A stretch of 64,000 nt of DNA, taken from contig JABURQ010000154.1 in assembly GCA_014762625.1 (NCBI GenBank), positions 1 to 64,000 on the forward strand, in the 5' to 3' direction. Below are positions 1,968 through 23,780 of this stretch, in pieces; positions within the stretch are counted from its first letter, which is position 1, and every line of letters starts with the position of its first letter. The stretch is from Planctomycetaceae bacterium (GTDB taxonomy: Bacteria > Planctomycetota > Planctomycetia > Planctomycetales > Planctomycetaceae). A program made the position numbers and the translations under genes. The notes below the pieces were generated by a model. The model ran no database searches. It was not told the DNA's origin and worked only from the letters and a program-made list of their open reading frames with translations.

Positions 1968-4444
1968 TGAAAGAAAACATGACTAAGACGAAAATCGAAC
2001 TTGGTTTCCTACTCCCAGGTGTGCCGGATGCGCGTGACAAATGCGTCGAGAGAATTGGCGAACGATTACGCGAGCATGCTGGAATCGATAATGCGCATCT
2101 CTCGGTCGCGGACGAAAGCCAGCCTGATCGGCTCTGCATTCATTTTAATCCCGAAGCGATTTCGATGGACGATGTCCGGCAGCTTGCTCGTCGGGAAGGT
2201 GCTAAGCTCGAAGATCGTTACGGTCATTTCATCAGGCGCATTGAATCAATTCATGCAAGGCGTGCTTCCGCGATTGAATCACGTTTGGCGAGAGTCAACG
2301 GTGTTCTCGAAGCTGCTGTATCACCAGACGGCGCCGTCCGCGTCGAATATGATCGCGACGTCACCGACGAGCAGGCGATTGAAACGGCTTTGCGGGAATG
2401 GTCCGATCCCAACGACATCGTCGCGCCGGATCATGCTGACCACAAACACGACGACGAAGGTCATGAAGACGATCATGACCACGCCGGTCACGATCACGCT
2501 CACGGAGGCATCTTTGGACCGCGAAGCGAATTGATCTTCGCGATTCTGTGTGGCTCTTTTCTGCTGGTCGGGTGGCTATTGGAGACGTTCACGGAAATTT
2601 CCGAGTGGATTGCGGTCGCCTGTTTTGTCGCGGCCTATCTGTTCGGCGGCTACTACACCGTCACCGAAGCGATCGAGAAAATTCTCGCCAGAAAGTTCGA
2701 GATCGACTTCCTGATGCTGATCGCTGCTGCGGGGGCTGCGTCTCTCGGTGCATGGGCCGAAGGAGCGTTGCTGCTGTTTCTATTCAGTATCGGTCATGCA
2801 TTGGAAGGCTATGCGATGGGGCGAGCCAAACGTGCCATCGAAGCGCTCGCGGAACTTGCCCCGCGAACGGCTCGTGTTCGCCGCGATGGAACCGAATCGG
2901 AATTGCCGGTCGAACAGCTGGTTGTCGGTGATGTGGTGGTCATTAAACCCGATGAACGAGTCCCCGCTGATGGATTCGTCATCCTTGGGGAATCGAGCAT
3001 CAATCAGGCCCCGATCACAGGCGAGAGCGTACCCGTTGATAAGCGAGCCGTCGCTGACGCGGAGTCAGCAGCGAATGATCCAGAGTCCCTTCCGCCGGAG
3101 CATCGGGCATTCGCTGGAACGATCAACCAATCCGGGGCTTTGGAAATACAGGTCACCAAGATCGCTTCCGAGAACACGTTGGCTCGCGTCGTGACGATGG
3201 TGAGCGAAGCGGAGACCAGAGTCTCTCCGACGCAAAAGTTTACGAAACGCTTTGAGAAGTATTTCGTCCCATCGGTGATCCTACTTGTCATTTTGCTGAT
3301 GTTTGCACCGTTGGTGTTGGATGAGTCTTTCAGTGAATCCTTCTACCGAGCAATGGCGGTTCTTGTCGCCGCCAGTCCGTGCGCTTTGGCCATCGCCACG
3401 CCAAGTGCCGTGCTGAGCGGTGTGGCTCGGGCGGCAAAGGGTGGCATTCTGGTCAAAGGTGGCGGACCGCTGGAAAGTCTTGGCAGTCTCGACGCAATTG
3501 CCTTCGACAAGACCGGTACATTAACCGAAGGTGAGCCGAAGGTCACCGACGTGCGTGCAGTTGACGGTGTCGAAGAAGCTGAACTGCTGCGCGTCGCCAT
3601 CGCAGTCGAAGACCTCAGCAAGCACCCGCTTGCACAGGCCGTCGTGCGGGACGGCAAAGAACGGCTGGGAAATTCGACGGACATTCCCGATGCGACCGAC
3701 TTGCTAAGCATCACCGGTCGTGGAATTCAAGCCACCGTCGAGGGTGGTCTCGTTCATATCGGCAAGGACGATCTGTTTGCGGAAGTCGAGGGTACACCGT
3801 TGTCGGACTCAGTTCGCAAGACGGTTGAGTCTTTGGAGCGTGACGGACGCACCACGATGATTGTGCGGCATGGTGATCGCTATCTTGGTGTGATCGGTCT
3901 CATGGACACACCTCGCGAAGCGTCGAAACGCACAATTGCTCGTCTGCGAGAATTGGGCATCGAGCGAATGATCATGATCTCCGGTGACAACCAGCAAGTC
4001 GCCGATGCGGTTGCGAGAGAAGTCGGACTGGATGAAGCTCGCGGCGATCTGATGCCCGACGACAAAGTCGCTGAGATCAAAAAGATGCACGGAGAAGGCG
4101 GTGTGGCAATGGTTGGCGACGGCGTCAACGATGCACCCGCGATGGCGTCAGCATCGGTTGGCATCGCGATGGGAGCTGCCGGCAGTGATGTGGCGCTCGA
4201 AACCGCCGACGTGGCCCTGATGGCCGACAACCTCGATCATCTGCCGCTGGCTATTGGCCTCAGTCGGGCAACAAAAAGCATCATCCGTCAGAACCTATGG
4301 ATGAGTCTCGGCATGGTCGCCTTCCTCGTTCCCGCCACAATTTTCGGACTGAACATTGGCCCCGCAGTTGCTCTGCATGAAGGCAGCACTCTGGTCGTGG
4401 TTTTCAACGCACTGCGTCTGCTAGCTTACAAAACAAAATTCTGA
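1967..4444 (+). CDS. P1B-4-type metal-transporting P-type ATPase (Co/Fe/Zn-like)
   Basis: This 825-residue metal-export ATPase should move a divalent cation out of the cytoplasm. ATG 1967 was chosen because GGGAGG lies just upstream and the start overlaps the previous stop. The transmembrane metal site reads S-P-C at residues 470-472 instead of C-P-C, and a HEGST motif is near residue 804; together these mark the P1B-4 subgroup (CoaT/CtpD/PfeT-like). Phosphorylation motif DKTGT is at 514, and TGES and GDGVNDAP are present. The N-terminus has two ferredoxin-like stretches without CxxC (about 1-145), then a His/Asp-rich segment (about 150-180), presumably a metal sensor. Selectivity among Co, Fe, Zn and Ni cannot be read from sequence. 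Confidence 0.93.
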   Translation: MKENMTKTKIELGFLLPGVPDARDKCVERIGERLREHAGIDNAHLSVADESQPDRLCIHFNPEAISMDDVRQLARREGAKLEDRYGHFIRRIESIHARRASAIESRLARVNGVLEAAVSPDGAVRVEYDRDVTDEQAIETALREWSDPNDIVAPDHADHKHDDEGHEDDHDHAGHDHAHGGIFGPRSELIFAILCGSFLLVGWLLETFTEISEWIAVACFVAAYLFGGYYTVTEAIEKILARKFEIDFLMLIAAAGAASLGAWAEGALLLFLFSIGHALEGYAMGRAKRAIEALAELAPRTARVRRDGTESELPVEQLVVGDVVVIKPDERVPADGFVILGESSINQAPITGESVPVDKRAVADAESAANDPESLPPEHRAFAGTINQSGALEIQVTKIASENTLARVVTMVSEAETRVSPTQKFTKRFEKYFVPSVILLVILLMFAPLVLDESFSESFYRAMAVLVAASPCALAIATPSAVLSGVARAAKGGILVKGGGPLESLGSLDAIAFDKTGTLTEGEPKVTDVRAVDGVEEAELLRVAIAVEDLSKHPLAQAVVRDGKERLGNSTDIPDATDLLSITGRGIQATVEGGLVHIGKDDLFAEVEGTPLSDSVRKTVESLERDGRTTMIVRHGDRYLGVIGLMDTPREASKRTIARLRELGIERMIMISGDNQQVADAVAREVGLDEARGDLMPDDKVAEIKKMHGEGGVAMVGDGVNDAPAMASASVGIAMGAAGSDVALETADVALMADNLDHLPLAIGLSRATKSIIRQNLWMSLGMVAFLVPATIFGLNIGPAVALHEGSTLVVVFNALRLLAYKTKF

Positions 4445-4456
4445 CAGGAGATTCAA

Positions 4457-4651
4457 ATGGAGATCAAACACATCATTCTCGGCTTACTTGAAGGCGTCGT
4501 CTGGTATTTCTTCATCTATTATTTGCTCACCACGATTAAGAAGCCTGACCGTAATCTGTGGATCGCATCTGCAGTTCTGTTGGTATTATTATACGTGGGT
4601 TTCGTTCTTTGCCCGTGGGTCAGACATACACCAGCCTGGCAAGGACTCTAG
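4457..4651 (+). CDS. Small two-helix membrane protein between metal ATPases
   Basis: A 64-residue protein with an ACAGGAG ribosome-binding site a few bases before ATG 4457. Two hydrophobic helices (about residues 4-25 and 34-52) flank a short basic loop (KKPDRN). It sits 12 bases after the P1B-4 ATPase and about 9 bases before the P1B-2 ATPase, so all three are probably one transcript. I do not recognise the family. Position suggests an accessory or regulatory subunit of one of the ATPases, but this is inference. Confidence 0.65.
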   Translation: MEIKHIILGLLEGVVWYFFIYYLLTTIKKPDRNLWIASAVLLVLLYVGFVLCPWVRHTPAWQGL

Positions 4652-4660
4652 GGATCGATC

Positions 4661-6796
4661 ATGTCATCAGAAATGCAACTGCGAGTACACGGAATGGATT
4701 GCGCTGAGGAAGTCACGTTGCTCAAGCGGGAATTGTTGCCGGTTGTGGGTAGCGATGAACTGCTTGGATTTGATGTTCTCAACGGAAAGCTGGTCGTCGA
4801 GCGACCCGCAGAAGTCTCAGAGGCGGACATCCTTTCGGCCATTGAGCGAACCGGATTAAAGGCCGTACCGTGGCAAGATAAGCCGCAGGACCGAGATGAT
4901 CTTTCCTTTTGGCAACGCCAGCAACGGATGGTCCTGACTGCTGTCAGTGGAGTGTTCGGACTTGCGGGTTTAGTGGTGCAACTTGTCGCTGGTGAATCTG
5001 CACCTGTGCCGGTCACGGCAATCGCGCTGTATAGCACCGGCATTGCCGCTGGACTGTTGATAGTGTTGCCGAAAGCATGGCGATCACTTGTTTCATTGCG
5101 TCCGGATATGAATCTGTTGATGTCCGTGGCCGTCGTCGGAGCCGTGCTGATCGGCGAATGGTTCGAGGGTGCGACCGTCGCGTTCCTATTTTCATTCTCG
5201 CTACTATTGGAGTCATGGAGTGTCGGGCGTGCCCGTCGAGCAATCGCGTCGCTGATGGACTTGTCACCTCCGACGGCTCACCTGCGGCATGAAGCAGGTC
5301 ATGTCAGCGATGTTGCTCCGACAGAAGTGCCAGTTGGATCAATCGTCGTCGTGCGACCGGGTGAAAAGATCCCGTTAGACGGTTTCGTTAGCGAAGGAAA
5401 CAGCAGCGTCAATCAGGCACCGATTACCGGTGAGAGCGTTCCGGTTGAGAAAGAAATCGGTGACGAAGTCTTCGCGGGAACGATCAACGGCGACGGTCTG
5501 CTAGAAATCGAAACGACGAAAGCTGCTGAAGACACAACGCTGGCTCGCATCATCAAGATGGTCGGTGACGCCGGTTCGAAGCGTGCTCCATCAGAAAAAT
5601 GGGTTGAGAAGTTCGCTGCCATCTACACGCCCGCCGTGATGATTGTGGCATTGCTAATGCTGCTCATTCCGCCGCTGGCTTTTGGAGGGCAGTGGGTGGA
5701 TTGGCTGTACCGATCCTTGGTGCTGCTGGTGATTGCCTGTCCGTGTGCGTTGGTGATTTCAACACCGGTGAGCGTGGTGGCATCACTCGCAGCTGCGGCT
5801 CGCAATGGTGTTCTCATTAAAGGCGGAGTGTTCGTCGAACTGCCCGCACAGTTGAAAGCCATCGCAATGGACAAAACCGGCACATTGACACAGGGGGCAC
5901 CGACTGTGGTAGACGTTGTGCCGATGAACGGACACGACGAAACGGAACTGCTGACTCGGGCTGGGGCATTGGAAATGAACAGCAATCATCCGCTGGCCAG
6001 GGCGATCGTCGAAGAAACAAAACAGCGCGGCATGACGATTCCAGTTGCCGAACGCTTCGCGACCATTCAAGGAAAGGGTGCTTCCGGCGTGATCAACGGG
6101 AAACCTTATTGGCTTGGCTCACACCGTTACCTGGAAGATCGTGGTCAGGAAACGCCGGAAGTTCACAATCAACTTGAAGCAATGCAAGGATCCGGTCGCA
6201 CTGTCGTTGTTGTCGGCAATGATGAACATGTCTGCGGATTCATCACCCTCGCCGATGCCATCCGCGAAGAGACTCGTGAGGCAATTCGGCAACTGCACGA
6301 AGCGGGCGTGAAACAGATCGTCATGTTGACCGGCGACAACGCAGGCACTGCACAAGCGATCGCACAAGAGGCGGGCATCGACGAAGTTCACGCAGAATTA
6401 TTGCCCGAGGACAAAGTCTCCGCAGTCGAGCGACTCGTCGAGGAATACCAGTTCGTCGCGATGATCGGCGACGGAGTCAATGATGCTCCCGCACTGGCCC
6501 GCGCTTCGCTGGGTCTCGCAATGGGAGCCGCCGGAAGCGATGCGGCAATCGAAACGGCCGATATTGCGTTGATGTCGGACGACTTGTCGAAGCTACCGTG
6601 GCTGATTCACCACTCGCGACGAACGCTGAGGATCATCCGCCAGAACATTGCCTTCTCACTGGCGGTCAAGGTCCTGTTCGTCATCCTCACATTCGCAGGA
6701 TTCGCCTCTCTCTGGGCCGCCATCGCAGCCGACATGGGAGCCTCACTGCTGGTGATCGGCAATGGCCTTCGACTGTTGCATGGATCGGGCAAATAG
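4661..6796 (+). CDS. zntA: Zn/Cd/Pb-exporting P1B-2 ATPase (ZntA/CadA-like)
   Basis: A 711-residue heavy-metal export ATPase of the inner membrane. An N-terminal HMA-like domain (about residues 3-65) carries GMDCAEE, keeping the first Cys of the usual GMDCxxC site but losing the second. The transmembrane CPC is at residues 360-362, DKTGT at about 404, with TGES, GDGVNDAP and a last-helix ADMGASLLV stretch whose Asp is typical of Zn/Cd/Pb pumps (P1B-2). It follows the P1B-4 ATPase and the small membrane protein closely, so a three-gene operon is likely. The incomplete N-terminal CxxC may alter regulation but not transport, because that domain is dispensable in ZntA relatives. Confidence 0.93.
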   Translation: MSSEMQLRVHGMDCAEEVTLLKRELLPVVGSDELLGFDVLNGKLVVERPAEVSEADILSAIERTGLKAVPWQDKPQDRDDLSFWQRQQRMVLTAVSGVFGLAGLVVQLVAGESAPVPVTAIALYSTGIAAGLLIVLPKAWRSLVSLRPDMNLLMSVAVVGAVLIGEWFEGATVAFLFSFSLLLESWSVGRARRAIASLMDLSPPTAHLRHEAGHVSDVAPTEVPVGSIVVVRPGEKIPLDGFVSEGNSSVNQAPITGESVPVEKEIGDEVFAGTINGDGLLEIETTKAAEDTTLARIIKMVGDAGSKRAPSEKWVEKFAAIYTPAVMIVALLMLLIPPLAFGGQWVDWLYRSLVLLVIACPCALVISTPVSVVASLAAAARNGVLIKGGVFVELPAQLKAIAMDKTGTLTQGAPTVVDVVPMNGHDETELLTRAGALEMNSNHPLARAIVEETKQRGMTIPVAERFATIQGKGASGVINGKPYWLGSHRYLEDRGQETPEVHNQLEAMQGSGRTVVVVGNDEHVCGFITLADAIREETREAIRQLHEAGVKQIVMLTGDNAGTAQAIAQEAGIDEVHAELLPEDKVSAVERLVEEYQFVAMIGDGVNDAPALARASLGLAMGAAGSDAAIETADIALMSDDLSKLPWLIHHSRRTLRIIRQNIAFSLAVKVLFVILTFAGFASLWAAIAADMGASLLVIGNGLRLLHGSGK

Positions 6797-8156: not shown

Positions 8157-8894
8157 TCACACAGTGGGAGGTGGCGGTGTATCAATCCGCTTAGGGGTGA
8201 CATTGCCTGGTTGGGATGAGGAACTAGGACCAAGTGAAGGAGGTGGCGGACTATTCATGCGAATCGAATCTTCCGATGGCAATTGTTCGCGACGAAATTC
8301 CGACTGGGGCTGGCGGTCCCTTACCGAGTCGTGAGGCAATGAGGGTTGTCCGAAGTAGTCTTGGTCGGATGGTGGTACCGCGTCACGACTTGGAAATTGA
8401 GGACCATGCGAATGACCTTCGTGCGAATGACCTTCGTGCGAGTGTCCGCCATGCGAATGTCCGCTGTGGCTATCACCGACGTGTGGATGGTTGTGCCCGA
8501 GTGCTCCAAAGCCAAAGGCGGGTTGGTACTGATCCACCAAACCGTTCGGCAATGTGCGGTCACACCGAAGCGGACATCCAAGGGATTCCCTATAAACAGA
8601 ATCGTTTCCATAACGACAAGACGCCTCTGCGTGAACCGGAATCGTTTGGTGCCGACTCAGCACTGTGTTCGGATACGCAATGTGGCGATATCTGTGAAAG
8701 GCGTTGTGACCGTGATGGTAATTGTGATGCGAATCGTGACGATAGCCATGACCATGATCATAGTGACTGTACGAATCTCCGTGGGCATATTCGCCGTGCA
8801 GTTCTCCATAGAGATGCTGTGCTGACGCGGGAGTTGTGATGCAGATGGAAAATGCCAACACGGATAGCAGAGTCAGTATGGTTGTGCGAAACAT
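8157..8894 (-). CDS. Exported His-rich, Pro-rich protein
   Basis: A 245-residue protein starting at ATG 8894, chosen because ACAGGATC lies just upstream and the signal peptide (residues 1-25, ending PASAQ) then begins properly. The mature region is His/Tyr/Gly-rich. A five-residue unit (GHSHE or GHSHG) repeats around residues 145-165, coded by imperfect 15-base repeats. The C-terminus is Pro/Ser/Gln-rich. The histidine clusters suggest binding of Zn, Ni or Cu in the periplasm or at the envelope. I do not recognise a family. The next gene downstream is a barrel protein on the same strand, so they may be expressed together. Confidence 0.7.
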   Translation of the reverse strand: MFRTTILTLLSVLAFSICITTPASAQHLYGELHGEYAHGDSYSHYDHGHGYRHDSHHNYHHGHNAFHRYRHIAYPNTVLSRHQTIPVHAEASCRYGNDSVYRESLGCPLRCDRTLPNGLVDQYQPAFGFGALGHNHPHVGDSHSGHSHGGHSHEGHSHEGHSHGPQFPSRDAVPPSDQDYFGQPSLPHDSVRDRQPQSEFRREQLPSEDSIRMNSPPPPSLGPSSSSQPGNVTPKRIDTPPPPTV

Positions 8895-8991
8895 TTTTTG
8901 ATCCTGTTGGATTGTTGGGTGCAACATGAAAGAATCCGCCGCGACTGGGGCGCCTCGTTGAATTCGGTTTCAACAGCAGGTGATTAGCAGA

Positions 8992-12371: not shown

Positions 12372-12400
12372 ATCGCAGTTGTATTCGGTCACTATTCTGC

Positions 12401-13936
12401 TCATTGATCGCAGGCGGGAGACTCCTCCTTAATCACTTCTCCCTTGATACCAGCTTTCTCAACCGCAGTCAGAACAGCATTCTTCGGTAAAGTACAGCAA
12501 GCCGGGCTGTGGACTTTGGCTCGTCCTGCCTTGAAATCAACCTGAACAGCGGTGATACCGGGAACGCTACGGATCGCTTCCGAAACTTCCACCGCACATC
12601 CCTCGCAGGTCATGCCTTCGATGTTCAAAACGGTTTGACGAAGCGATTCGTTCGGAGCATTGCTCGCCTGCTTGTCGCCCTCGCTGCCTGTTGACCATTT
12701 GGCTTCTGTTGCCGTCGTGTCGTCGGCTTCGGATATTTTCCCTGAACTCAGAAGTTCTCCGCTGTATCCGGCCTTCTTCAAGGCCGTCAAAATGTCTTCT
12801 TTGGGGATTGGGTTACCGGGTTTCACGCCGACGACCGCCTGTCCTTTCTCGTAGTTGACATCGACGGCGACGATGCCGGGCACCTGACGGATCGCTTGAG
12901 CGACTGTCGTAGCACAGCCTTCACAGGTCATGCCTTCGATCTGGAAGACGGCCCGATTCATATCCTCCGTCACGGCGGCGGCATCACTCGTGCCAAACAA
13001 CACACCGACGTAGCTGGGGAAGAAGAGGAAGGCGACCGCCAATACGGTCACGCCCCACAACATGACCTTGTTCAACGCGATCATGTTGAAACGACGTTTA
13101 CCGGTCGGGGCACAGCAGTCGTCCGCCACGTCACTTTCCGTGGGACAGCAGTCGTGTCCCGATTCGGCAACAGTTTTCTTGGGACGGTAGGTGAAGTAGA
13201 ACGCTGCTCCGAGAAATCCGAACGTCACGACCATGAACAGCGGGCGATACGTTTCCAGCGTGGCTGCGATCCCGACCCCGGACACGCCAACCGCCAGCAG
13301 AAGCAGCGGTAGCCAGCAACAGGCCGAGGCCATGATCGCCGAGACGACAGTGCCGATCTTGGCGATTTTCTCGCCACGGCCTGTCGATGATTTCGCCGTC
13401 GATGTGGGCGTCACGTTCAAGTCATTCATCCGCATTTCCTCCTGAGCGATTTGGATACCTTTCGTCACACTCCCCAGACAGCACGAACCGCTCGGATTGG
13501 AAGTCTCACAGTGACAGCCGGGGTCTTTCATCTTCGCCCGGATGTCTTCCAGAGCGTCGGAGCGGCCCTTCGTGCCAAGTTCCTCTTTGATGCTGCCGAC
13601 CGAATGCCCGAAGCAGTAGCACAGCGGGCGCTCGCCGCTGGATTCCTTCACGCCGACCGGAACTTTCAGTTGCGGCTTGGTGAACTGCGTGTCTCCTTCC
13701 TCGGTGAAGTACACCACGTCGCAGTCCTGCGATGGGCAAAACCGCCAGCCAGTGTCATCTTTGACGGATGCGCAATCTTCACTTGCCGTAGCACAGCAGG
13801 ATCGACTGTCTGCTGTGAACTTTTCGGCGAACTCGTCATCGAGCAACGCGCCGAGCGTCAATGTGCTCACTCGTTTGGCCTTGTGTCCACAGGACGGACA
13901 CTGAACCCTCTTCGTTGTCTCGGTCCGCTTGCTCAT
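12401..13936 (-). CDS. CopZ-like / MerT-like / tandem HMA fusion metal-transport protein
   Basis: A 511-residue composite protein; ATG 13936 is taken, but a GTG one codon upstream (13939) is nearly as good. Residues about 10-170 resemble the Archaeoglobus CopZ type: a Cys-rich zinc part (CPSCGHK, CPSQDC) and a BFD-like 2Fe-2S part (CYC...CHC). Residues about 190-310 form a MerT-like membrane module with SACCWLPLLLL. Two HMA domains follow, each with GMTCEGC (about 333-338 and 439-445), the last ending in a CC pair. Metal could pass from the HMA sites to the membrane Cys pair and the cytoplasmic Fe-S part. A divergent MerR gene and MerR-type promoter lie upstream. No MerA is present, so mercury reduction is not implied. 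Confidence 0.85.
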   Translation of the reverse strand: MSKRTETTKRVQCPSCGHKAKRVSTLTLGALLDDEFAEKFTADSRSCCATASEDCASVKDDTGWRFCPSQDCDVVYFTEEGDTQFTKPQLKVPVGVKESSGERPLCYCFGHSVGSIKEELGTKGRSDALEDIRAKMKDPGCHCETSNPSGSCCLGSVTKGIQIAQEEMRMNDLNVTPTSTAKSSTGRGEKIAKIGTVVSAIMASACCWLPLLLLAVGVSGVGIAATLETYRPLFMVVTFGFLGAAFYFTYRPKKTVAESGHDCCPTESDVADDCCAPTGKRRFNMIALNKVMLWGVTVLAVAFLFFPSYVGVLFGTSDAAAVTEDMNRAVFQIEGMTCEGCATTVAQAIRQVPGIVAVDVNYEKGQAVVGVKPGNPIPKEDILTALKKAGYSGELLSSGKISEADDTTATEAKWSTGSEGDKQASNAPNESLRQTVLNIEGMTCEGCAVEVSEAIRSVPGITAVQVDFKAGRAKVHSPACCTLPKNAVLTAVEKAGIKGEVIKEESPACDQ

Positions 13937-13993
13937 CACATCGTTGCTCCGTGTTTGTGCTCACCTTGATTGCTGAATGGACGTTTCTCCTGT

Positions 13994-14025
13994 ATTATCG
14001 AGGTTGCACTTAAGTGTAAGGTCAA
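13994..14025 (-). promoter_or_regulatory. MerR-family promoter/operator with 20-bp spacer
   Basis: Read on the minus strand there is TTGACC (-35, 14020-14025), a 20-bp spacer (14000-14019) and GATAAT (-10, 13994-13999). The spacer holds the near-perfect palindrome TTACACTTAAGTGCAA. An overlong 19-20-bp spacer with a centred dyad is the known architecture of MerR-activated promoters. It points at the MerT-fusion gene and sits about 80-110 bases from the merR-like start, so that regulator is the obvious ligand-responsive activator. Confidence 0.85.
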
Positions 14026-14105
14026 GCCGGATTCGCGATTTCTTGACTTTTTCCCGAGAAAGTTAGCGTTACGCCGTTCTTGCACATGACCTGTGAAGAA
14101 TTGAA

Positions 14106-14510
14106 ATGAGCAAACGACTGACAATCAGTGAGTTGGCGAAGGCCGCTGGCATCCCCATATCCACTCTTCGATACTACGAGCGGATCGGTCTCGTTGAACC
14201 AGAAGATCGTAGCTTTGGGAACTACCGACTCTACAGTGACCATTCGCTTAAGAAACTGAAGTTCATCCGAGCGGCGCAAGCCATCGGCTTCACACTGGAA
14301 GACGTCAAGTCACTGCTTGCCGACGGCGAAGGCAAAGCACTAACGTGCGGCAACGTTCAGGACCTCATTGAAGCACGATTGACCGATGTCGAAGAACGCC
14401 TCAAAGACCTGCGACACGTTCGCAAAGTGCTGAAGTCTGCTCTGGAGCAATGTCACCAACAAAAGAAGTCCGACTGTTGCCACGTCGTGACGGAGCTAAA
14501 GGCAAAGTAG
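14106..14510 (+). CDS. MerR-family metal-responsive regulator
   Basis: A 134-residue transcriptional regulator. The N-terminal winged helix begins LTISELAKAAGIPISTLRYYERIGL, followed by a second wing (FGNYRLYSD) and a dimerisation coiled coil (about 80-118). Candidate metal ligands are Cys in LTCGNV (about residue 79) and the C-terminal cluster EQCHQQKKSDCCH, resembling MerR/ZntR/PbrR sensors with a Cys triad. It is divergent from the MerT-fusion gene and should remodel the 20-bp-spacer promoter at 13994-14025. The inducing ion (Hg, Pb, Zn or Cu) cannot be decided from sequence. Confidence 0.93.
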   Translation: MSKRLTISELAKAAGIPISTLRYYERIGLVEPEDRSFGNYRLYSDHSLKKLKFIRAAQAIGFTLEDVKSLLADGEGKALTCGNVQDLIEARLTDVEERLKDLRHVRKVLKSALEQCHQQKKSDCCHVVTELKAK

Positions 14511-15461: not shown

Positions 15462-15488
15462 AACCTCTTACGGAAACGGAGAAGATTG

Positions 15489-15812
15489 ATGAGTCAGTAT
15501 TCATCATGCATTGAGGCTTGCCAGAAGTGTGTCGTCGAATGCGTCGAATGTTTGGACGCGATGGCGACGATGGAAAGTTCGAACGAATGTCCGCGATGCT
15601 GCGTCGAATGCATCGACATTTGCGAACTCTGCATCAAAGCGATGGCCCGCGACAGCAAATTCGCCAGCGAATACTGTCGCCTCTGTGCAAAAATCTGCGA
15701 ATGGTGCGCCGATCAGTGTGCAGCACATGATCACGATCACTGTAAGAAGTGCGCAGACGCTTGCCGCACGTGTGCTAAAGAGTGCCAGGAGATGAGCGGA
15801 GCAGCCGCTTAA
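15489..15812 (+). CDS. csp: Four-helix-bundle copper-storage protein (Csp family)
   Basis: A 107-residue protein with about 21 cysteines spaced along four helices (CxxxCxxC-type patterns such as CQKCVVECVEC, CCVECIDICELC, CRLCAKICEWC, CKKCADACRTC). This is the Csp/DUF326 arrangement, in which Cys residues line the core and hold many Cu(I) ions. No signal peptide is seen, so it resembles cytosolic Csp3. GGAGAAG just before ATG 15489 supports the start. It buffers Cu(I) and fits the copper genes around it. A GGGAACCGTGCC element lies in the 294-base leader region. Confidence 0.92.
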   Translation: MSQYSSCIEACQKCVVECVECLDAMATMESSNECPRCCVECIDICELCIKAMARDSKFASEYCRLCAKICEWCADQCAAHDHDHCKKCADACRTCAKECQEMSGAAA

Positions 15813-18263: not shown

Positions 18264-19637
18264 ATGATGTCAGAAAGTAGCAAAGAAGGTTCTTCGAAGT
18301 ACGAGAAGGGAAGTCTTTCCCTCCCCGGTGCAGTGGCGATGGGGACTGGCGTGATGATTGGGGCAGGAATTTTTGCTCTCACCGGTCAGATGGCGAATCA
18401 GGCGGGGAGCCTGTTTCCCTTTGCGTTTCTATCAGCTGCACTGGTGACGGCATTCAGCGCGTACAGCTACATCAAGATGTCGAATGCTTATCCATCTGCG
18501 GGTGGCATTGCGATGTATCTAAAGAAAGCGTACGGAGAAGGGACAGTCACCGCTGGCTGCGCGATGCTGATGTACTTCTCGATGGTCATCAACGAGAGCC
18601 TGGTCGCCCGGACCTTCGGAACTTACACCTTGCAGTTGTTCGACGTCGGGGAAGATTCCTGGCTTGTCCCAGTGCTTGGGGTAGGTCTGTTAGTGTTTGC
18701 GTTCATTGTGAACATCATGGGCAACGATTTCATCGGCAAGATGTCGATGATCACCGCTGTCATCAAGATTGGCGGCATTGCCATCTTCGCGGGCATTGGG
18801 CTATGGCTTTCGGGCTTCTCGTTTCAAACCGTCACCAGTATGAAAGAAGCAAGCGGCGGAGGCTTTCTGGCAGCCACAGCCTTGGGGATTCTGAGCTACA
18901 AGGGATTCACGACCATTACGAACAGTGGTGGAGAACTAAAGGATCCACACAAAAATGTCAGCCGGGCGATCATCATTTCGATCTCGGTCTGCGTCGCTTT
19001 GTATCTACTCGTGGCGTTTGCCGTCGCTGGAAGTCTGAGCCTCGACGAAATCATCAAGGCCAAGGACTACGTGTTGGCGGAAGCGGCTCGGCCCGTGCTG
19101 GGGCAGTATGCGGTGTGGTTCACTGTCGGCATCGCGATTGTTGCGACCGTTTCCGGAGTGATTGCAAGTACATTTGCTGTCTCACGCATGTTGGCGATGC
19201 TCTCCGAGATGAGGCTTGTGCCACATCGCCATCTTGGCATGCCGGGGGACGTTCAGAAACACACGCTCGTGTATACGATCGTCTTGGCGATCCTGCTCAC
19301 AATCTTTTTCGATCTGAGCCGGATTGCCTCATTGGGAGCAATCTTCTACATCATTATGGACATCGCAATTCATTGGGGCGTCTTTCGTCATCTCAAGAAA
19401 GACATCGAAGCCAACAGCTTCATTCTGATCTCGGCAATTGTCCTTGATGTGATCGTTCTAGGAGCTTTTCTCTTTGTCAAAGTCTCCTCTGATCCACAAG
19501 TTTTGATTGTGGCTGCAGTCGGCCTGGTGATGATCTTCGCAGGAGAGAAATGGTTCCTGAAATGGAAACCGGACTACCTGACCGAAGATGATATGCGTAA
19601 CGATTCCTCACATCACGACGATGAACCAGCTTCTTGA
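18264..19637 (+). CDS. APC-superfamily amino-acid permease
   Basis: A 457-residue integral membrane protein with about 12 hydrophobic helices. The first helix carries GTGVMIGAGIFALTGQ, the glycine-rich unwound motif of the amino acid-polyamine-organocation superfamily, and helix 6 the LSYKGFTTITNSGGEL stretch. It ends in a short acidic/His tail (SSHHDDEPAS). ATG 18267 is an alternative start. It lies 55 bases downstream of the glutamate-synthase-like gene and 18 bases before the ion-channel gene. Substrate not predictable. Confidence 0.9.
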   Translation: MMSESSKEGSSKYEKGSLSLPGAVAMGTGVMIGAGIFALTGQMANQAGSLFPFAFLSAALVTAFSAYSYIKMSNAYPSAGGIAMYLKKAYGEGTVTAGCAMLMYFSMVINESLVARTFGTYTLQLFDVGEDSWLVPVLGVGLLVFAFIVNIMGNDFIGKMSMITAVIKIGGIAIFAGIGLWLSGFSFQTVTSMKEASGGGFLAATALGILSYKGFTTITNSGGELKDPHKNVSRAIIISISVCVALYLLVAFAVAGSLSLDEIIKAKDYVLAEAARPVLGQYAVWFTVGIAIVATVSGVIASTFAVSRMLAMLSEMRLVPHRHLGMPGDVQKHTLVYTIVLAILLTIFFDLSRIASLGAIFYIIMDIAIHWGVFRHLKKDIEANSFILISAIVLDVIVLGAFLFVKVSSDPQVLIVAAVGLVMIFAGEKWFLKWKPDYLTEDDMRNDSSHHDDEPAS

Positions 19638-19655
19638 CCATCACAAGGCGACCGC

Positions 19656-20651
19656 ATGCTTGAGTTTCATTATTTTTGGACGGTTATTGGCGGCTTGGTT
19701 GTGCTCGCCCTGACCGTCGATGCCGTTGTGACGACATTGCTACTCAGTGGAGCAGGTTTTCTTTCGAAATATCTCACCCGTTTCATTGGTCGATGTTGCA
19801 TGAGCCGTGAGCGTGAGTTCATTTCAAAGAACGCATCGGTCTTTGCACTGTTGGCGACGTTCGTACTGTGGTCGCTGCTACTCCTGGCCGGCTGGGCGTT
19901 GATTTTCTGTGGCTCGTCGGAGGCTGTCATTGAGAGTGAAAACAAAGATCCTGCCGATCTGCTGAGCAGGATTTACTTCGCCGGGTTTACGATTACGACT
20001 TTAGGAACGGGGAATTACATCCCGAACGGACCACTCTGGCAACTGCTATCCGTAGTGGCCGCGGCAAATGGGTTCTTCATCGTTACGATCTGTGTGACCT
20101 ACACATTCTCTGTGCTGACAGCGTTGAATGAGAGGCGTTCGATCGGGGTGGCGATCGGACATCTGGGGCACACTCCAGTCGACTTATTGAAGTATGCCTT
20201 GGACGCGGAGTCGCGACAGTTGATTTCTAATCAACTACAAGATTTAACACTTCGGCTTCAACTGGCGAGCGTCAAGACCGATGCGTATCCGGTCATCGAG
20301 TATACGCATGTTCCTGACCGTCAGCATTCCTTTGCCATTGGCGTCGCCAAACTGGGTGAAGCTTGCCTTCTGAGCGAACAGCTGATGCCGTCAGCTCAAT
20401 CGTTTCCTAAAGTCATCACCGATCCATTATGGAAAGCTGTATATCTAATTACAGGTGAAACCAATTCAAACGGTGAGGAGTCGGCGGACTACTCAGCCCA
20501 ATTGTTGATGCCGTATTTCGATCAACTTGACGCCCAGATGAACTGCGAAGAGAAACTGAAAATGCCACCAACCAGCGAAAAGCGAGATCGCCTTTCTGCA
20601 TGGCTGGCGTGGCACCATCGAGATTGGAATGACGTGTACGGGGAAGGCTGA
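19656..20651 (+). CDS. Two-helix potassium-channel-like protein with atypical filter
   Basis: A 331-residue protein. After an N-terminal helix (about 8-32) and a second (about 62-84) there is a pore loop TITTLGTGNYIPN (about residues 113-125) and a following helix, matching the Ion_trans_2 architecture. The usual TxGYGD filter is replaced by TLGTGNY, so K+ selectivity is doubtful. A cytoplasmic helical region without an obvious RCK domain makes up the C-terminal half. It is convergent with the multicopper oxidase, 28 bases apart. Confidence 0.75.
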   Translation: MLEFHYFWTVIGGLVVLALTVDAVVTTLLLSGAGFLSKYLTRFIGRCCMSREREFISKNASVFALLATFVLWSLLLLAGWALIFCGSSEAVIESENKDPADLLSRIYFAGFTITTLGTGNYIPNGPLWQLLSVVAAANGFFIVTICVTYTFSVLTALNERRSIGVAIGHLGHTPVDLLKYALDAESRQLISNQLQDLTLRLQLASVKTDAYPVIEYTHVPDRQHSFAIGVAKLGEACLLSEQLMPSAQSFPKVITDPLWKAVYLITGETNSNGEESADYSAQLLMPYFDQLDAQMNCEEKLKMPPTSEKRDRLSAWLAWHHRDWNDVYGEG

Positions 20652-20679
20652 GGCCTAGTTTCGATCGGTAAAATGCAGT

Positions 20680-22209
20680 CTACGAATGACCTTCATGCAT
20701 CATCATTTTCTCCATCATTCCGGGTGGCGTCTTTTTGTAGTCAGCGGGGTTGCCGAAGCGGTTGACGATCTCGGCAAAGATGGCGCCTTTTTCGATCTTT
20801 TCATCGGTCTCCATGACGCGATGAAACAGATCGTCTGGCAGCACACGCATTGAGGTCATCAGACCTTTCATCGACATGGGGGCCGCTTCTCGCATCCCTT
20901 TCATTTCCCTAGGTTGCCAGACTTTCTTCATGAACTCCATGCTCATTTCCATGCCCTGCATCTTCTGAGGATAGCCGGGAGGGGCTGTTCCGCGTCCTGT
21001 TTTCGTCACAGTCACAGTCGGCCGGACGTCGAGATTTTCCATGTATTGATCGACCGAAACATTTTGACGGATGCGGGGGCCGTTCTGACGAGTCATATGA
21101 TTCATCATGTGATGGATCATATGGCAATGAAATTGCCAATCTCCCGGGTTGTTGGCAATAAACTCAAATTCGCTGGCTTGAGCAACGGCGACGAGTTCTG
21201 TATTGCGTGGAATCCAAGCCGTTTTGGGTGCTCGTGCACCTTCATGGGCAGTGACCCAGAAGGTGTGGCCGTGCATGTGAATCGGATGGTGCTGCATCGG
21301 ACTGAAATTGATCAGCCGTACACGCACCCGTTCGCCATGTTTGACCACACAAGGAGTTGTATAGGGACCACTGCGCCCGTTGATTGTGTGCCAGTTCCAG
21401 TCCATCGACCATGAATCCGAGACTGTTTGATTCGGCAGAATGAAGAAGTTTTGAAAGACGAGTATGAAGTCGCGATCGACCGGCGGATCAAACGGCTTGG
21501 CAGGATGCACGACAATCGGGCCAACCATACCCATTGCTTCCTGCATCGCGACATGCGAGTGATAGAAAAACGTCCCTTCTTCGTGGACATCAAACTCGTA
21601 TTTGAATGTTCTGCCTGGCTGAATGGGATTCTGCGTCATTTCCGCAGCCCCATCGTACTGCACCGGCATTTCGAACCCATGCATATGAAAGTTCGTCGCT
21701 TCGCTAAGGTTGTTGGTCACCAGAATGCGAATACGATCGCCCTGGTTGATCTCGATCAACGGACCGGGCAGGCTGCCGTTGTACCCGTAGACGTTCATAT
21801 GGTAGCCAGGCAGGAATTCGCGACTGACTTCTTCGGCTGAGACGTGAAACTCCTTCACTCCATCAACCATCTTGAACGGGAGTTTCTCCAAGTCAGGCGT
21901 GGTAATGAGTGCGGGGCCATCGGCTGGTTTGCGAAAGCCGGGGACGAGCTTACCGAGGTAATAGTCGCTATCCGGATCGTGACCGCGTGAGGGTTGATAG
22001 CGAGAGAAACCATCGTACTCGGCTTCAACGTGGGAATGCTTGTGTTCGACTGTCGGAGGAAGAGGCTTCTTCGGGACTCCCGGTCCTGTAGCCTCTGGAG
22101 CTGGTTCTTGTCCTTGTGAGACAGAGGCTCCGGCAGAGAATGCGACGGCAGCCAGAGTTCCTTTCTTGAGGAAGTCTCGCCGACCTTGGGGGGGAATTTC
22201 GTTTGACAT
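20680..22209 (-). CDS. Tat-exported multicopper oxidase (CopA/CueO-like)
   Basis: A 509-residue periplasmic cupredoxin oxidase. The N-terminus carries a twin-arginine signal (GRRDFLKKG, about residues 9-17). Copper ligands appear as HMHG (type 2/3), FFYHSH, HPIHMHGHTF and WQFHCHMIHH, giving the mononuclear and trinuclear sites. The C-terminal quarter is Met-rich (MQGMEMSMEFMKK, GMMEKMMMHEG), typical of Cu(I)-oxidising enzymes in copper tolerance. It probably oxidises toxic Cu(I) to Cu(II). It lies 98 bases downstream of the TolC-like gene on the same strand. Confidence 0.93.
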   Translation of the reverse strand: MSNEIPPQGRRDFLKKGTLAAVAFSAGASVSQGQEPAPEATGPGVPKKPLPPTVEHKHSHVEAEYDGFSRYQPSRGHDPDSDYYLGKLVPGFRKPADGPALITTPDLEKLPFKMVDGVKEFHVSAEEVSREFLPGYHMNVYGYNGSLPGPLIEINQGDRIRILVTNNLSEATNFHMHGFEMPVQYDGAAEMTQNPIQPGRTFKYEFDVHEEGTFFYHSHVAMQEAMGMVGPIVVHPAKPFDPPVDRDFILVFQNFFILPNQTVSDSWSMDWNWHTINGRSGPYTTPCVVKHGERVRVRLINFSPMQHHPIHMHGHTFWVTAHEGARAPKTAWIPRNTELVAVAQASEFEFIANNPGDWQFHCHMIHHMMNHMTRQNGPRIRQNVSVDQYMENLDVRPTVTVTKTGRGTAPPGYPQKMQGMEMSMEFMKKVWQPREMKGMREAAPMSMKGLMTSMRVLPDDLFHRVMETDEKIEKGAIFAEIVNRFGNPADYKKTPPGMMEKMMMHEGHS

Positions 22210-22307
22210 AATTCAGACCTTCGTAAAACCGCGTGGGACTCTAAAAATAGTCCCTCAATGATCGATATTTGGATGGAGTCGAGAACGGAAGAAATTCGAG
22301 TCGCCGC

Positions 22308-23780
22308 TTACCGAGGTTTCGGCACAGAGTCAATGTGTCCGCCTGGCAATGGACCGCTCGGGGTTTGTAGACCACCATGAAGCAGAAAACCGTCAATCAA
22401 AATTTCACTCGTTCGTTGAGCAGAGAGATTCATCACGTACTCGACACGTGCCCGCGTGTAGTCGTCGTATGCCTGAAGAACGTCATCCCAGGCAATACGA
22501 TTGGCTTTGTAGCTCGATAGCACCAGGCTGTACGCCTTCTTTCGTTCGGGCAGAATGACAGTTTCATAATTCTGCACGTTTTGTGCAGCTGTTAGGTAGC
22601 GTCCATATTCAACTGACAGGCGTCGACGCAGGTCGAGCTCGGTTCTTCGAATCTCACTCTGCTGACGGCTGTAGTCCGCTTCCGCCTGCTTAATCGTGCC
22701 TTGGTTACGATCATAAAGTGGAATTTCGAGGGACAACATGGCGCTGTAGGTCGTTTCCCGCGCATCAAAGTTGTAGCCGGCTCCAGTCCCGGCAACGATA
22801 TCGGGGACCCACTCGACTCGTTCTCTCTGCACAGTAATCAAATCTTCACGGAGCTTCGCGTGAGCAGCACATAATTCGGGGCTTTGAGCAAGAATGTTTG
22901 CGTAGGCTGCATCAAAATCAATGAGATCTCGTGACGACTTGAGTTCTCCGTTCAGACTGGGAGCTGAGATTTCCGCACCTGTGAGTGAAATCAATTCGAG
23001 TAGATGCTGACGGTAATCGTTCTGAGCATTCATCACAGCCAGTCGATGCTGTTGCAACAATGCATTCGCTTGATGTGCTTCTGCGCGGGAAGCCTGCCCC
23101 ACGTTATATCGCTCTCGAATAGTGACAAGGTTGTCTTCTGCATTCTTGAGCAGTTCTTTCTTCAAGTCGATAATATGGCGAGCAGCGAGAGCTTTAACGA
23201 AGTGAATTCGCACATCATTGCAAACACGGTACTGCTGAGCGACAGCGAGAAACTCGGCGACTTTGGCTCGTTGCAGATACTTGTTCTCACTCAGTTCGAG
23301 CTTGCCTGCCGTGACGAATCGTTGCTCGATCTCCGCACCCTGCCATTCTCCAGCCGTTCCACCGACTCCAATTTGCTCACCGAGATAGCGTAAGGTCGGA
23401 TTCGGATAGAGTCCTGCCTGAATTGCACGATTGAGCTGAGAATTGATGTGCAGTCGCGACTGACGGATGGTCGGATTGTATTCCGCAGCCATGCTGAGGA
23501 ACGCCTCCAATGTGTAATCTTGATTATCGAGCACTTCCCCTGGATCTGAAAAAGCCCAAGTTGGACCAATGGTATTGGGAGTGGGTGGTGGAGCGAGGAA
23601 CTCACGACCAGCTTTATCACTGGACACCGTGTCACTCTCCAGTGGAACTGGGAAAGCGTTTGGCGAGGGCGGCACATGGCGGGGGTGAAGCTGTTGGGCA
23701 CTCACTGGAGACGCACAGAATGAGCCGATCAATACTGTACTGATGACAGCAGACTGGATACATATTTGTAATGTTTTCAC
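22308..23780 (-). CDS. TolC/CusC-like outer-membrane efflux protein
   Basis: This is about 490 residues if translation starts at GTG 23780, which gives a proper signal peptide (KTLQICIQSAVIS..., ending VSAQQ); the frame stays open upstream to 23861. The mature protein has two repeats of long helices with the OEP pattern (e.g. LFSGN-type regions replaced by AGLYPNP and AKLREDLITVQRERVEW), so it should form the trimeric outer-membrane channel of a CusCBA complex. It is transcribed toward the multicopper oxidase and is divergent from a second OEP gene. Confidence 0.88.
   Translation of the reverse strand: MKTLQICIQSAVISTVLIGSFCASPVSAQQLHPRHVPPSPNAFPVPLESDTVSSDKAGREFLAPPPTPNTIGPTWAFSDPGEVLDNQDYTLEAFLSMAAEYNPTIRQSRLHINSQLNRAIQAGLYPNPTLRYLGEQIGVGGTAGEWQGAEIEQRFVTAGKLELSENKYLQRAKVAEFLAVAQQYRVCNDVRIHFVKALAARHIIDLKKELLKNAEDNLVTIRERYNVGQASRAEAHQANALLQQHRLAVMNAQNDYRQHLLELISLTGAEISAPSLNGELKSSRDLIDFDAAYANILAQSPELCAAHAKLREDLITVQRERVEWVPDIVAGTGAGYNFDARETTYSAMLSLEIPLYDRNQGTIKQAEADYSRQQSEIRRTELDLRRRLSVEYGRYLTAAQNVQNYETVILPERKKAYSLVLSSYKANRIAWDDVLQAYDDYTRARVEYVMNLSAQRTSEILIDGFLLHGGLQTPSGPLPGGHIDSVPKPR

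Follow-up and report, generated by a model that had tools for sequence, protein, structure and literature searches.

A CopZ-MerT-HMA-HMA fusion behind a MerR-type promoter as the probable transport and relay protein of a planctomycete mer-type operon without merA

INTRODUCTION

Which metal would be handled by a protein that joins a CopZ-type domain, a mercury-type membrane transporter and two HMA domains in one polypeptide, and where would the ion go in a genome that encodes no mercuric reductase? The question is raised by a gene in a 64,000-nucleotide stretch (the window) of contig JABURQ010000154.1 from a Planctomycetaceae bacterium. An initial annotation, made from the sequence alone, recognized this gene and its divergent merR partner, and read copper or broad soft-metal handling from the neighboring genes and the missing reductase. 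The analysis reported here points to mercury rather than copper as the most likely metal, and the fusion probably transports and relays the ion for a planctomycete mer-type operon in a form devoid of merA.

RESULTS

Domain anatomy and conservation of the fusion

The gene and its modules are as follows.

12401-13936, minus strand: CopZ_N-MerT-HMA-HMA fusion gene, 511 aa from ATG, with an alternative GTG start at 13939
13421-13936, minus strand: CopZ-type N-domain, residues ~1-172 (NF047645, PF18423, 2hu9)
13011-13375, minus strand: MerT module with three TM helices, residues ~188-308 (PF02411)
12761-12949, minus strand: HMA domain 1 with GMTCEGC, residues ~330-392 (PF00403)
12446-12634, minus strand: HMA domain 2 with GMTCEGC, residues ~435-497 (second stretch of PF00403)

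Profile searches bore out the proposed single polypeptide, with all four parts scoring over their cut-offs. The N-terminal part matched zf_CopZ PF18423 (55.8 bits, cut-off 28.4) and CopZ_Nterm_CC NF047645 (107.2 bits, cut-off 100; 112 in the genome search), the middle part matched MerT PF02411 (44.1 bits, cut-off 32.9), as the annotated MerT similarity of the membrane part had implied, and the C-terminal part matched HMA PF00403 in two stretches (84.2 bits). The CopZ fold suggested for the first 170 residues was also recovered against the crystal structure of the Archaeoglobus fulgidus CopZ N-domain (2hu9), both by sequence (E 4.6e-12) and by a predicted fold of low confidence (E ~1e-5; model mean pLDDT 60). 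This alignment-based structure model was applied only to secondary structure and fold matching, and it sets the MerT helices at residues 188-216, 231-250, and 285-305. The interval originally assigned to the fusion, 12401-14025, runs on to the end of a promoter box, beyond the gene itself at 12401-13936 (13939 from the GTG).

By alignment with 2hu9 and from the ligand identities of A. fulgidus CopZ, the predicted Zn ligands of the N-domain are C13/C16/C67/C72 and the predicted [2Fe-2S] ligands C106/C108/C143/C152-153. Among 21 relatives, C13, C67, C72, C106, C108, C143, C152, and C153 are kept in all and C16 in 19; the CC pair C206/C207 in TM1 of the MerT module and C338/C341 of HMA1 are likewise invariant. 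HMA2 is found in a subset of relatives only, and C444/C447 are present in 10/10 of those that have it. The MerT module also carries a Cys-rich loop (C263/C264/C274/C275) predicted to be cytosolic. By the positive-inside rule, with a charge bias that is weak, the N-flank of TM1 and the TM2-TM3 loop would face the cytosol and the C-flank the outside. This predicted topology agrees with the known layout of MerT in the membrane with a periplasmic MerP. The dN/dS of the fusion is 0.28-0.34 against close relatives and ~0.21 against farther ones; such purifying selection argues for continued function.

Regulator and promoter

Two elements described by the initial annotation, a divergent merR gene and a promoter with a 20-bp spacer, are present upstream.

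13994-14025, minus strand: MerR-type promoter TTGACC-TTACACTTAAGTGCAACCTC-GATAAT, with a 20-bp spacer and an imperfect dyad
14106-14510, plus strand: divergent MerR-family regulator, 134 aa, with Cys81/Cys116/Cys125

At up to 3 mismatches, the 32-letter promoter consensus has a single match in the 6.2-Mb genome to which the window belongs; its reversed version gave 0 matches, as did shuffles of the window. On that account we rejected the idea that this MerR has another promoter in the genome, and the uniqueness of the operator also implies that no merA is expressed under this promoter type at another site. The 20-bp-spacer promoter precedes the fusion in at least 18 of 26 inspected fusion loci, a divergent merR is a common neighbor, and promoter and MerR are conserved with the fusion.

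Among MerR subfamilies, the regulator scores highest against the mercury MerR model TIGR02051 (109 bits, below the cut-off of 150.85); it exceeds the equivalog cut-off of no subfamily, which counts against a mercury assignment. Its structural relatives are, best first, Tn501 MerR (5crl) and the Bacillus mercury MerR, then PbrR and CadR, then CueR. C81/C116/C125 align with C82/C117/C126 of Tn501 MerR at identical spacings of 35 and 9, and the divergently paired relatives retain the triad, all with Cys at position 81. The 35/9 spacing is common to the Pb sensor PbrR691 too, another point against mercury in particular. A Cys at the first position marks sensors of divalent ions and a Ser those of monovalent ions, Cu or Ag (PMC11591864); the window MerR has Cys81 at that position, not the Ser of the CueR type. 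Because of the Cys81 triad, the best but subthreshold TIGR02051 score, and the spacing common to PbrR691, we read this regulator from its sequence as a probable sensor of divalent soft metals, most likely mercury.

A widespread planctomycete family

About 50 distinct fusions were found in Planctomycetota. The NF047645 cut-off was exceeded in 30 of 392 genomes of the phylum (~8%), nearly always by long frames that encode MerT as well, and one contig scan returned ~26 full or near-full relatives with 34-92% identity, nearly all of them from Planctomycetota. The initial annotation knew of no characterized protein with this module order; that holds as far as our searches show, and the order is no one-off, belonging instead to a widespread family. 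A tree of 50 fusions contains one-HMA and two-HMA forms, the close relative L148 having one. The modules can also be divided: a Neomarinimicrobiota locus (L030) has a MerT-HMA gene directly followed by a CopZ_N gene, and in L133 and L150 overlapping or adjacent frames replace the single fusion frame.

A gene for a YnfA-like small membrane protein adjoins the fusion or CopZ_N in unrelated hosts (L004 7042-7590, L022 7493-7828, and L180 4577-4894), an assignment made by NCBIfam match for L022 and by annotation as YnfA for L180. On plasmid pK2D_1 (CP036351.1), the gene at L081 10001-11236 annotated as merA, "Mercuric reductase," is actually a CopZ_N-MerT-HMA fusion, and a profile search found no MerA on this plasmid. 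The plasmid gene of strain K2D has been published as MerA (PMC11588811).

Linkage to merA in relatives and its absence from the window genome

Directly downstream of the fusion, six loci (L002, L003, L019, L020, L022, and L146) from four lineages of the tree have merA. The merA products of these loci score 498-514 bits against TIGR02053 (cut-off 454), that of L003 reaching 502, and the merA of L002 is split over two frames. The closest merA-bearing relatives of the window are L002, a Gimesia MAG, and L003, from Roseimaritima, which share 90-92% DNA identity with it exactly across merR and the fusion (12379-14488). The similarity stops ~22 bp beyond the fusion stop codon; past that point, both relatives have a DUF gene of 199 aa and then merA, and the window has a bestrophin gene instead. 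Fusion, 199-224-aa DUF, and merA follow one another in Gimesia L002 and again in the Phycisphaera relative L022, which is only 40% identical, so the linkage of fusion and merA is old.

The 199-224-aa protein encoded between fusion and merA (L002 9536-10135, L022 9402-10076, and L003 ~8433-8972) has a hydrophobic N-terminal stretch, its L002 copy is unmatched in Pfam and NCBIfam, and it is a candidate for a new mer accessory protein. Fusion and merA are separated by a second gene, encoding two HMA domains, in L146 (10302-10868) and in L019 (9427-10086). The merR gene and the 14000-14100 region of the window have diverged from L003 more than the fusion has (dS 0.71 for merR and 0.13 for the fusion), a contrast that suggests a mosaic cassette.

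All merA-linked fusions are of the two-HMA form (6/12, against 0/38 of one-HMA or undetected forms; Fisher p 6e-5, the rows being nonindependent and drawn from four tree lineages). Across the phylum sample, true MerA occurs in 4/392 genomes, always within a few kb of MerT and twice adjoining the fusion. MerA and the fusion are weakly associated (2/30 fusion-bearing genomes against 2/362 others, p 0.03), and the majority of fusion carriers without MerA counts against a mercury role. MerA was found in 5/21 collected relatives, plus the broken copy of L002, and fusion-bearing hosts without it include single-contig genomes.

The absence of a reductase from the window, as first annotated, extends to the whole genome, which is 99.99% complete and has no MerA over the cut-off (best MerA-like score 352 bits, cut-off 454). 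MerA elsewhere in the genome was rejected, the candidates being subthreshold lipoamide-dehydrogenase-like proteins, those inspected without the MerA C-terminal Cys pair; a merA remnant within the window was rejected as well, since tblastn gave none. A MerB search returned zero matches in the window genome and likewise zero in control genomes. Because its tree neighbors L003 and L002 bear merA, the gene was likely lost from the window lineage; alternatively, relatives of the L002/L003 type may have gained it.

Neighboring genes

Three genes near the fusion bear on the metal.

3002-4444 and 4661-6796: P1B-ATPases, scoring best as Zn/Cd/Pb/Hg class, not Cu-type
15486-15812: DUF326/Csp-like Cys-rich protein gene, 1 kb from the MerR-fusion locus, below the Csp1 cut-off

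The Csp/DUF326 gene is the only neighbor pointing to copper, and Csp_W matched none of the genes beside the fusion in the relatives examined. Given the scores of the two ATPases, a copper reading of the neighborhood was rejected. The initial annotation's choice of copper thus gave way to merA in relatives with 90-92% identity, a MerR with Cys81/116/125, and ATPases of the Zn/Cd/Pb/Hg type.

Window segments 4614-6774 and 18293-23678 correspond, rearranged and with 91-95% DNA identity, to a metal-resistance island of L148 (G024, same family), where the one-HMA fusion stands directly beside an ATPase.

Stand-alone CopZ_N genes on plasmids

The N-domain alone was searched against plasmids, the source of the cross-phylum evidence, which yielded 28 records, and 19 annotated loci were read. 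A MerR gene lies immediately upstream of the stand-alone CopZ_N gene in 13 of these 19 (L163, L165, L167-L169, L171-L175, and L177-L179), from Deinococcus (7), Bacillota (3), Stenotrophomonas (1), and cyanobacteria (2), under the annotations "Copper chaperone Copz family" or (2Fe-2S)-binding. The MerR exceeds the mercury equivalog cut-off in the Stenotrophomonas, Cytobacillus, Peribacillus, and Cohnella loci, and together with the 13/19 count this argues for a recurrent coupling of CopZ_N to mercury-type regulators. Both cyanobacterial loci have merF between MerR and CopZ_N, merB adjoins CopZ_N in two Deinococcus loci, and a Halorussus locus has merA/merB nearby, with merB within ~2 kb. Minimal MerR-CopZ_N operons with no other adjoining mer gene occur in Stenotrophomonas, Cytobacillus, and Cohnella, and true MerA is encoded on 2 of the 18 CopZ_N plasmids scanned. 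In all, stand-alone CopZ_N sits beside MerR, merF, or merB on plasmids from four bacterial phyla; since such genes adjoin mercury-type regulators in several phyla, the NCBI label "copper chaperone Copz family" may mislead. For two stand-alone copies the neighbors are instead ArsR and a heavy-metal P-type ATPase, which makes the coupling nonexclusive and counts against mercury.

DISCUSSION

From these sequences we infer the metal, the direction of transport, the topology, and the hand-off to the N-domain in a putative mercury relay. At the 20-bp-spacer promoter, MerR would respond to Hg(II), or to another soft divalent ion like it, and switch on the fusion. The ion would be bound first by the C-terminal HMA domains, MerP-like and predicted to be periplasmic, and next by the Cys206-Cys207 pair of the MerT helix TM1. 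On the cytosolic side, the Cys-rich loop between TM2 and TM3 may then deliver it to the CopZ-type Zn/[2Fe-2S] domain at the N-terminus. Import or shuttling of an ion to this N-terminal cluster, an idea already raised by the initial annotation, is plausible. Relatives that bear merA would go on to reduce the relayed ion to Hg(0). At the window locus, the sink may be the CopZ domain itself, small thiols, or a nearby ATPase of the Zn/Cd/Pb/Hg class. Mercury uptake without a reductase would by itself be harmful, and this speaks against such a relay.

The same architecture could serve copper or silver, with import through the HMA and MerT parts, reduction of Cu(II) to Cu(I) by the [2Fe-2S] domain, and delivery to Csp or a Cu-ATPase. 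We consider this unlikely: the regulator has Cys where monovalent sensors have Ser, the nearby ATPases are of the Zn/Cd/Pb/Hg class, and merA is linked to the fusion in relatives. The DUF326/Csp-like gene 1 kb away fits copper, but the relatives examined do not keep Csp next to the fusion. Cus-type RND genes adjoin some relatives, and GMTCxxC HMA motifs, whose ligands include Cu(I) and Hg(II) alike, would suit either metal. The CopZ-N domain is named after a copper chaperone, which tells against mercury, and in A. fulgidus it mediates the reduction of Cu(II) (reviewed in PMC7558416).

That redox chemistry also lends itself to another reading, in which merA-less loci use the CopZ-type domain as a terminal Hg(II) binder or reducer fed by MerT and the HMA domains. 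Minimal MerR-CopZ_N operons with a true mercury MerR in Stenotrophomonas, Cytobacillus, and Cohnella, the MerR-MerF-CopZ_N order of two cyanobacteria, the low count of MerA among plasmids (2/18), and the purifying selection on merA-less fusions all fit it. The reading nonetheless seems rather improbable, as MerA could sit on other replicons of the plasmid hosts, Hg(II) binding or reduction by a CopZ-type domain is putative, and we know of no precedent for the reduction of Hg(II) by a single [2Fe-2S] cluster. Decay of a mer cassette that has lost merA would explain why the likeness to merA-bearing relatives ends just beyond the fusion stop and why the close relative L148 also lost one HMA domain. 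We judge a nonfunctional remnant very improbable given an open frame with all key cysteines, dN/dS values of 0.21-0.34, an intact operator and regulator, and merA-less forms that are widespread and old.

A transport and relay protein of a mer-type operon remains our preferred interpretation of the fusion. Doubtful, in our view, is the more general proposal that the CopZ-type Zn/[2Fe-2S] domain is an unrecognized part of mercury resistance that receives or reduces Hg(II) without MerA, so that MerR-CopZ_N, MerR-MerF-CopZ_N, and the four-part fusion would be builds of one merA-independent system. The Planctomycetes are nearly missing from a published MerA census, with one entry (PMC8261052). Despite this near-absence, a fused mercury-type transporter is widespread in Planctomycetota, mostly without MerA, and the family allows a direct test of the fate of mercury imported without a reductase.

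In the literature searched, no paper links the CopZ N-domain with mer operons, and neither the four-part order nor a phylum-wide link to mer genes was found; the parts are already known, and the order and the link are new as far as these searches show. The MerTP fusion model NF033556 has MerT and then HMA, as in the window fusion, which reaches 146.7 bits over residues 197-392 (below the cut-off of 180) and differs in an added N-terminal CopZ-type domain of ~170 aa, a second HMA domain, and a CC...CC cytosolic loop. The MerT/CopZ fusion-like selenoprotein NF045683 has a similar MerT and HMA arrangement (84 bits), but the window fusion falls far below its cut-off of 375 and has no selenocysteine, and the 235-position model is also too short for a CopZ N-domain. 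CopZ itself also ends in an HMA domain. The A. fulgidus protein has an N-domain homologous to that of the fusion, with Zn and cluster cysteines aligned, and no membrane module, whereas the fusion inserts a MerT part, predicted to span the membrane, between N-domain and HMA. Stand-alone CopZ_Nterm_CC proteins (NF047645, "copper chaperone Copz family protein") in MerR operons share the domain and the regulator family, sometimes with merF or merB, and are encoded by separate small genes, while the window domain is covalently fused to transporter and HMA domains. With the canonical merR-merT-merP-merA operon, the window locus has in common a divergent MerR, a long-spacer promoter, and MerT and MerP-like parts; it departs from that operon in a genome without merA and in the union of MerT, MerP-like, and CopZ-N parts in one polypeptide.
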